In this document: one piece after another, positions 2,687-3,748 of the stretch
How the letters are laid out: each line of letters begins with the position of its first letter
How positions within the stretch are numbered: the first letter of the stretch is position 1
Assembly (NCBI RefSeq): GCF_004310335.1
Contig: NZ_SIRS01000003.1
Coordinates: 186,001 to 250,000 of the forward strand
Reading direction: 5' to 3'
Origin: Hyunsoonleella pacifica
GTDB lineage: Bacteria; Bacteroidota; Bacteroidia; Flavobacteriales; Flavobacteriaceae
DNA length: 64,000 nt
Notes under the pieces: model-generated
Told to the model about the DNA's origin: nothing
Databases searched by the model: none
Seen by the model: only the letters and a program-made list of their open reading frames with translations
Position numbers and translations under genes: made by a program

Positions 2687-2716
2687 AACTAATAGCAAAT
2701 TATATCCTAAGACTAA

Positions 2717-3346
2717 ATGCATACATCCATAGTAATAGCAGATGATCATCCGCTAATGCTCAGAGGCTTAACAGATTTTCTTACTTCCAAAGGTTATAAT
2801 ATTTTGGGAAGTGCTGAAGATGGTAAAAGTGCTTATAATCTTATTGTAAAACTTAAGCCAAAGATTGCTATTCTCGATATTAGAATGCCACTAAAAACTG
2901 GGTTAGAGATTGCTGAAGAAGTTCAAAAAAACGAGTTACCTACTAAAGTTATCTTAATTACATTTGATAAAGAAGAAGAACTATATGATAAGGCTTTAAA
3001 ATATGGCGTTTATGGCTATATTTTAAAAGAGTTTGCTATTGAAGAAATAGAAACTTGTATTGCTCATGTACAAAATAACCAAGCTTATTTCAGTGAAGAA
3101 ATTGCAGAGTACCTAAATCATAATCAAAATAACAAACCCGAGCAACTTGATTTACTTACAAAATCTGAGCTAAAAATTGTAAAATTAATATCTGAAAGCA
3201 AGACATCTCAAGAAATAGCTCAAGAACTATCTATATCACCAAGAACTGTAGATAAGCATAGAAGCAATATCGTATCAAAACTAGAACTAGATAACAAACC
3301 AACTTCATTATCTATTTGGGCTAATTTAAATAAGCCCTTTCTATAA
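2717..3346 (+). CDS. Orphan LuxR/NarL-type response regulator
   Basis: A 209-residue two-domain regulator. The receiver domain (about residues 3-120) has the acidic pair DD at 9-10, the phospho-acceptor Asp54 in AILDIRMP and Lys103 in the YGYILKEF segment. The LuxR-type helix-turn-helix spans about 145-205 (LTKSELKIVKLI, then SISPRTVDKHRSNI). No histidine kinase is encoded next to it. It is preceded by a retropepsin-like protease and followed directly by two tandem TACGTA palindromes that each front a putative small-RNA gene. This suggests, but does not prove, that it binds those sites. Confidence 0.93.
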   Translation: MHTSIVIADDHPLMLRGLTDFLTSKGYNILGSAEDGKSAYNLIVKLKPKIAILDIRMPLKTGLEIAEEVQKNELPTKVILITFDKEEELYDKALKYGVYGYILKEFAIEEIETCIAHVQNNQAYFSEEIAEYLNHNQNNKPEQLDLLTKSELKIVKLISESKTSQEIAQELSISPRTVDKHRSNIVSKLELDNKPTSLSIWANLNKPFL

Positions 3347-3347
3347 A

Positions 3348-3365
3348 ATACGTACAACTACGTAT
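3348..3365 (+). promoter_or_regulatory. TACGTA palindrome, copy A (putative regulator site)
   Basis: ATACGTACAACTACGTAT is an inverted repeat whose 7-bp arms also contain the self-palindrome TACGTA. It begins immediately after the regulator stop codon. A -7-like TACTTTTA starts exactly 40 bp after the start of the palindrome (3388-3395), so the centre of the site falls near -43, the place of a class II activator. There is no TTG at -33, as expected for an activator-dependent promoter. Confidence 0.6.
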
Positions 3366-3399
3366 TTTTTAATATTCAAATATAAATTACTTTTACAGG

Positions 3400-3467
3400 G
3401 CTATTAATTAGTTCTTAGGGAGAATTATTGAAAGTCCTAGATTGTAAAGTCTAGGGCTTTCGCATTT
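3400..3467 (+). ncRNA. Putative small RNA, copy A
   Basis: Predicted transcript of about 67 nt from the promoter at 3348-3395. It opens with GCTATTAAT, followed by a 6-bp hairpin (AGTTCT at 3410-3415 with AGAATT at 3421-3426, loop TAGGG). A 12-bp hairpin follows (GAAAGTCCTAGA at 3430-3441 with TCTAGGGCTTTC at 3450-3461, one G-U pair) and then GCATTTT, a modest terminator U tract. No open reading frame of note is present. Copy B at 3549 repeats this architecture. The exact ends are inferred. Confidence 0.55.
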
Positions 3468-3495
3468 TATAAGCATAGCTAGTATACCAGAAAAA

Positions 3496-3513
3496 ATACG
3501 TACAACTGCGTAT
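3496..3513 (+). promoter_or_regulatory. TACGTA palindrome, copy B (putative regulator site)
   Basis: ATACGTACAACTGCGTAT differs from copy A by one base. The -7-like box TACTTTTA at 3536-3543 again starts exactly 40 bp after the palindrome start. Conservation of both elements and of their spacing between copies, while the bases between them differ, points to selection on a regulated promoter. Confidence 0.6.
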
Positions 3514-3548
3514 TTTTTTTTAAAACTCTAACATATACTTTTACACAA

Positions 3549-3616
3549 GCTATTAATCAAATTCTTTTGAGAGAGAATTACCAAAACCTTGTGTTACAAT
3601 AGCACAAGGTTTTTTA
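3549..3616 (+). ncRNA. Putative small RNA, copy B
   Basis: Same plan as copy A. GCTATTAAT at 3549-3557 is followed by a 6-bp hairpin (AATTCT at 3560-3565 with AGAATT at 3574-3579, loop TTTGAGAG) and then by a terminator hairpin (AAAACCTTGTG and CACAAGGTTTT, 3583-3612) with a strong T-run. The 5' part resembles copy A in sequence, whereas the terminator stem is unrelated in sequence yet sits in the same place. That is what paired RNA structure under selection should look like. Confidence 0.58.
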
Positions 3617-3646
3617 AAAGAAACCCTTACTTAATTATTAATCCAT

Positions 3647-3748
3647 ATGAAAACTACAGAATCCATTTTGGACACCTCATTTGCAATTGGTCTTGCAATT
3701 TTAGTGGTTGCCACTATTATTATAAACCTACTAGTTATAATCTTTTAA
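3647..3748 (+). CDS. 33-residue single-span membrane micropeptide (candidate)
   Basis: ATG at 3647 opens 33 codons: a polar N-terminus (MKTTESILDTSF) followed by about 20 hydrophobic residues, then TAA. The pattern is that of a one-helix inner-membrane micropeptide. It follows the terminator of small-RNA copy B and precedes a hairpin pair and a bidirectional terminator. No -7 element of its own was found, so expression might depend on read-through. A chance reading frame is possible at this length, though the clean membrane-helix composition and the well-placed ATG favour a real gene. Confidence 0.4.
   Translation: MKTTESILDTSFAIGLAILVVATIIINLLVIIF

Follow-up and report, generated by a model that had tools for sequence, protein, structure and literature searches.

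In Pseudomonas, the duplicate sRNAs RsmY and RsmZ are controlled by the response regulator GacA through an upstream palindrome; they titrate RsmA/CsrA and are not encoded next to gacA. In Vibrio, LuxO is a sigma-54 activator and the Qrr sRNAs need Hfq. As a response regulator, LuxO activates several sibling sRNAs, which pair with and repress the mRNA of their regulator (PMC3262071). Within the Bacteroidota, FopS and GibS of Bacteroides thetaiotaomicron are paralogous sRNAs of 65-70 nt with a seed at the 5' end and pairing near start codons; FopS is known from 14 loci, with RbpB, and no tie to an adjacent regulator was described (PMC11697453). The Flavobacteriaceae are major marine polysaccharide degraders whose post-transcriptional control is almost unexplored, and Rfp18 was the only characterised conserved flavobacterial sRNA found in the literature searched. 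It is a trans-acting sRNA of Flavobacterium psychrophilum, conserved in Flavobacteriaceae, for which three or more stem-loops and targets among metalloproteases were described (PMC9723704).

The window, a stretch of 64,000 nucleotides from Hyunsoonleella pacifica, holds two tandem, diverged units 3' of a response regulator gene (hereafter, RR). Each unit runs from a TACGTA palindrome through a -7 box of the Bacteroidota type and a GCUAUUAAU tail to a small hairpin with a purine loop and a terminator.

2717..3346, plus strand: RR, NarL/LuxR-type, 209 aa, without an adjoining kinase gene (Pfam Response_reg and GerE; Flavobacteriaceae orthologues)
3349..3364, plus strand: palindrome 1, TACGTACAACTACGTA, 16-bp core, presumed RR operator
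3388..3395, plus strand: putative promoter -7 box of unit 1, TACTTTTA (TAnnTTTR), at fixed spacing from the palindrome
3399..3465, plus strand: putative sRNA of unit 1, type A loop UUAGGGA (covariance model R1, 72.1 bits; folding z -5.2)
3409..3427, plus strand: hairpin 1 of unit 1, AGG-rich loop (folding; helix 1 has 96% of cells paired)
3429..3462, plus strand: terminator hairpin of unit 1 (folding; 12 of 13 pairs changed on both sides across relatives)
3497..3512, plus strand: palindrome 2, TACGTACAACTGCGTA, 16-bp core, presumed RR operator
3536..3543, plus strand: putative promoter -7 box of unit 2, TACTTTTA
3548..3618, plus strand: putative sRNA of unit 2, type B loop UUUUGAGAGA (covariance model R1, 62.3 bits; folding z -4.8)
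3583..3613, plus strand: terminator hairpin of unit 2 (folding)
3647..3748, plus strand: small ORF for a 33-aa single-TM peptide, conserved alongside the RR (RR orthologues have comparable TM ORFs of 30-45 aa on their 3' side)

Judging from comparative sequence evidence alone, we are fairly confident that the units are RR-activated sibling sRNAs that act in trans and pair with the RR mRNA, most likely as negative feedback, and that their core is also driven by other LuxR-HTH regulators. The two genes would each yield an sRNA of about 65-70 nt. The active RR would bind the TACGTA-N4-TRCGTA palindrome just 5' of a weak Bacteroidota promoter, in a class-II-like position, and so turn the sRNAs on. 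Pairing would fall to two parts, the 5' tail (GCUAUUAAU), which does not vary, and, in hairpin 1, the purine loop (UUAGGGA or UUUUGAGAGA), with the variable second hairpin serving as the terminator. One target would be the RR's own mRNA, where tail and loop would pair with the leader and block translation. With no expression or binding data, it is by inference that the units are transcribed, that the RR binds, that pairing takes place in the cell, that its effect is negative and that there are further targets.

By analogy, the circuit is most likely a variant of the known Qrr-LuxO-like negative feedback, which fits better than GacA-RsmY/Z. It would share with Qrr-LuxO the set of RR-activated sibling sRNAs pairing with the mRNA of their own activator, but it differs in its NarL/LuxR-type RR, its Bacteroidota promoter and the lack of a detectable Hfq (PF17209 was not found in the H. 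pacifica genome), as well as in an unrelated RNA of 65-70 nt, tandem genes beside the regulator, and an RNA common to other regulators. The preliminary description had pointed to GacA with RsmY/Z, and the layout of duplicate sRNAs under one response regulator with an upstream palindrome indeed agrees. The mechanism does not carry over: CsrA (PF02599) was not found in the H. pacifica genome and was found in the controls, the units adjoin their regulator gene, and the Qrr-LuxO-like loop is the better fit. Nor do the RNA loops hold several GGA motifs as in CsrB-type sRNAs, with one AGGGA in type A and none in type B. Like FopS/GibS, the units form a paralogous Bacteroidota family of 65-70 nt sRNAs for which a seed at the 5' end and start-region pairing are proposed; unlike them, they have an adjacent regulator, and the RRM_1 partner protein (PF00076, found in the Bacteroides control) was not found in the H. 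pacifica genome. The failure to find CsrA, Hfq and RRM_1 makes titration of the RsmY/Z type unlikely.

Rfp18 is the nearest named flavobacterial sRNA, and the likeness is that of a conserved Flavobacteriaceae sRNA acting, here by proposal, in trans; its minimum of three stem-loops and its metalloprotease targets do not fit this RNA, but identity is not excluded. No earlier description of the RNA family was found in Rfam or the literature searched. At the gathering level, Rfam matched tRNAs only, with chance-level matches below it and no match to Qrr or another known sRNA model, and a known RNA family was rejected as the identity on that basis. Leaving Rfp18 open, the family is apparently undescribed.

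The individual parts of the two units had largely been read correctly in the preliminary description. The palindromes were claimed to be near-identical, and their cores, TACGTACAACTACGTA and TACGTACAACTGCGTA, differ by one base. Across the 4.13 Mb genome, with at most one mismatch allowed, the palindrome was found at 3349-3364 and 3497-3512 only, and a reversed control pattern was found 0 times. For the box TACTTTTA, said to lie 40 bp from the palindrome start, the first bases are 3388 and 3536; this distance is right for the 18-bp palindrome and becomes 39 bp if counted from the start of the 16-bp core. The common opening GCTATTAAT, reported shortly 3' of the box, has its first base at 3400 in unit 1 and at 3549 in unit 2. 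The folds described for hairpin 1 and the terminator hairpin were reproduced, with the z values listed above and 0 of 200 shuffles equally stable. The terminator stems of the two copies are unrelated in sequence, and no ORF of at least 60 aa spans the units, both as claimed.

Units of this kind accompany the RR in many genomes. RR orthologues at E<=1e-30 were detected in 80 of 149 Flavobacteriaceae genomes (the weaker matches are possibly paralogues) and were also retrieved in 80 named loci; the closest, from H. ulvae, has 96% identity. The expectation in the preliminary description that homologous units stand beside RR orthologues was met in 28 of the 30 loci first fetched. A total of 240 units were found adjoining RR orthologues at about 110 loci. 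Two collections were drawn on and a number of loci came from both; the distinct unit sequences number 201. Nearly all orthologues above 60% identity have one to six tandem units downstream, in which a TACGYA-N4-TRCGTA palindrome and a TAnnTTTA box precede the RNA core GCTATTAATTAGTTCTTAGGGAGAATTA. Given this range of copy number, and further copies elsewhere in the genome, 'a pair' was too narrow a term. The distance from palindrome to box was 39 bp in 236 of the 240 units with a search window of 36-42, and the same spacing was recovered in 56 of 57 units by a wider-window scan. A covariance-model search with a check for hits beside the RR had also been suggested: model R1 matched 51 of 149 Flavobacteriaceae genomes, and in 46 of these 51 the match was directly 3' of the RR (counted by hand from the tables of RR orthologues and model matches). 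No R1 match was obtained outside Flavobacteriaceae in samples of 196 genomes of the order and 198 of the phylum. Phage-borne spread was rejected as a candidate, viral contigs having no exact match to the 27-base core pattern.

The RNA structure is supported by covariation. In 44 aligned units, the two-hairpin structure had 94% of cells paired versus 40-59% with a slid structure, and 15 of its 17 pairs were changed on both sides; the terminator stem is variable across relatives and its changes are compensatory. Two loop types occur, UUAGGGA (A) and UUUUGAGAGA (B), frequently one of each per locus. Among the 201 distinct units, the information content is about 1.9 bits at most palindrome-arm positions and near 2 bits at most box positions, drops to about 0.3 bit in the spacer, and is high again in the 5' tail. 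The earlier view that promoter architecture and RNA structure are what is conserved thus holds for the fixed spacing and the fold, but what is most conserved in the RNA across genomes is primary sequence, in its 5' tail and hairpin loop. Translation into conserved peptides, which would have refuted the sRNA interpretation, was not supported: no ORF is conserved, the longest one has a median of 11 codons, and a coding peptide inside the units was rejected.

The complements of the conserved RNA parts were found in the leader of the RR mRNA, where the window has two elements.

2690..2696, plus strand: TAATAGC in the RR mRNA leader, complement of the sRNA 5' tail GCUAUUA (k-mer enrichment in leaders)
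2706..2711, plus strand: CCTAAG in the RR mRNA leader, complement of CUUAGG in hairpin 1 of unit 1 (its position matches the TCCCT / TCTCTC element of other leaders)

An unbiased k-mer count over 93 distinct RR leaders ranked TAATAGC(A) first, with 55 of 93 leaders and 0.5 expected, and ACTCCCT, TCTCTCT and TCCCTAA were next among the top k-mers. They match the sRNA 5' tail and both hairpin-loop types (TCCCT/CTCTC) by exact complementarity, and they are located at about -25 to -32 and -10 to -17 relative to the RR start codon. TAATAGC was present in 49 of 79 RR leaders versus 4 of 433 control leaders from other genes of the same loci, and CTCTC-bearing leaders were associated with type B units (odds ratio 5.9). 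The RR loci are related by ancestry, so p-values overstate their independence. AATAGC was detected in 70 of 113 RR loci with sRNA and in 0 of 21 without, indicating that the sRNAs probably pair with and restrain the mRNA of their own activator; as complements of both RNA parts lie beside the RR start codon, near -30 and -13, the most likely effect is lower RR synthesis, i.e., negative feedback. Comparison of the genomes thus bears out conserved genes, spacing, fold, association and leader complementarity, and the whole looks like a family-wide feedback circuit in marine flavobacteria.

Among the loci, either of the two leader elements can come first, the order being reversed in the distant L119, L123, L124 and L142, and each element therefore seems to be kept for itself. 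In most leaders the order is incompatible with one continuous duplex. By a simple duplex-energy calculation, 48 of 93 leaders beat dinucleotide shuffles at 5% or better and the window's leader reached 7%; its own second complement (2706..2711) is only 6 bp. Counts of the two-element pattern TAATAGC-N-TCCCT-N-ATG in 149 genomes were near background, so that no second target can be named from a search confined to patterns and fetched loci.

R1 also finds copies away from the RR. In about two dozen genera the RNA core, preceded by the palindrome TACTCAAATTGAGTA, adjoins a PAS-LuxR regulator of 256 aa. At PAS-LuxR loci with at least 60% identity, the palindrome is followed by the RNA start in 23 of 25, and the distance from palindrome end to RNA start is 34 nt in 21 of those 23, equal to that in the TACGTA units. 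At another locus (L157), a second RR of 221 aa with little Pfam signal, beside a TPR-type histidine kinase, has TTACGG-N4-CCGTAA before the same core, which is present twice in tandem; similar core copies adjoin relatives of this second RR at L170 and L174. A third copy in the H. pacifica genome (L156, contig C29:418413-418483, minus strand) has the palindrome ATACCcaatattaGGTAT about 39 bp from its box. No LuxR-type regulator was seen beside this copy, and a close PAS-LuxR homologue, sought in the same genome as its regulator, was not found. The comparison thus has one RNA wired to at least two other regulators besides the RR. That operators differ while the geometry and the RNA stay is the strongest argument for reading the palindromes as regulator sites. 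The link between RR and units, which the preliminary description inferred from adjacency, gains from this and from the fixed spacing. Several signals may accordingly run into one RNA output, with other LuxR-HTH regulators driving the same core via other palindromes. We find it reasonably likely, with somewhat more reserve than for the sRNA circuit itself, that this is a shared output module in which unrelated LuxR-HTH regulators use their own operators, the same promoter spacing and one core RNA, with feedback on the RR via two pairing sites and without Hfq, CsrA or an RRM protein.

Other explanations differ in how much of this evidence they can accommodate. Positive feedback, with the sRNA activating or stabilising the RR mRNA, or else a leader that serves as a sponge for the sRNA, is the alternative we take most seriously, albeit as an unlikely one. 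Complementarity alone does not give the sign, and in some leaders the tail complement is near a possible transcription start, where pairing could protect the mRNA; the second element (-10 to -17), however, overlaps the initiation region, in which FopS pairing represses in Bacteroides (PMC11697453). It is improbable that the units, instead of being free sRNAs, act in cis on the small TM-peptide gene as its tandem-duplicated 5' leaders or attenuators. The TM ORF comes after the last unit in most loci, the last unit continues into the ORF without a clear terminator at L026 and L027, and in sRNA-less relatives the palindrome directly drives the ORF. Against these points stand the strong terminators of upstream units, the PAS-LuxR copies and the third copy of H. 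pacifica, which lack such an ORF and have a terminator before another or a convergent gene, and the match of tail and loop to RR leaders elsewhere.

The palindrome could instead serve the upstream gene, mainly as its intrinsic terminator, and be no operator, given that in many loci it begins 2-5 nt past the RR stop and is followed by a T run. This is very improbable, as the same palindrome stands 5' of every internal unit, the T run is often missing (TACGTATTGTTTG), the 39-bp spacing to the -7 box is maintained, and unrelated palindromes replace it at equal spacing beside other regulators. Hardly credible at all are protein sponges like RsmY/RsmZ, whose GGA-type loop would titrate a CsrA-like translational repressor: the layout of regulator-activated duplicate sRNAs and the AGGGA of type A loops would suit them, but type B loops are without GGA, binding motifs are few per RNA, a base-pairing target is conserved, and CsrA titration was itself rejected when CsrA was not found at the Pfam level in the H. 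pacifica genome with controls detected. The preferred reading remains that of RR-activated, trans-acting sRNAs. On this reading a conserved sRNA family is matched with a probable activator and a probable target, the pairing sites are spelled out, and the whole can be put to the test straight away. The same reading further suggests that several regulators meet in a single RNA, in a genome that yielded no Hfq, CsrA or RRM_1.

The surroundings of the RR vary among relatives. Immediately 5' of the RR in the window, at 2223-2666, is a small retropepsin-like aspartic protease gene, which also adjoins RR orthologues. The small TM-peptide gene is shared by the window with L114, L115, L118, L121 and other RR loci. 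At many sRNA-less RR loci, L114, L115 and L118 among them, the palindrome and box are directly 5' of this ORF. At the sRNA-less loci the RR start adjoins or overlaps an upstream frame resembling the C-terminus of a histidine kinase (judged by eye). Two loci, L160 (G040) and L162 (G121), retain the operator, the sRNA and the retropepsin-like neighbour and yielded no RR orthologue at the search threshold, a pattern that would fit loss of the RR there. In PAS-LuxR leaders the tail complement is absent; the leader of one PAS-LuxR gene (L195) has CTCCCTAAGAA, an 11-nt complement of the sRNA hairpin, and a few other PAS-LuxR genes have TCTCTC immediately before the start codon. In the alignment of units, CUCU in the 5' arm of the terminator is kept in many units beyond the need for pairing, and could pair with the GAGAG loop.
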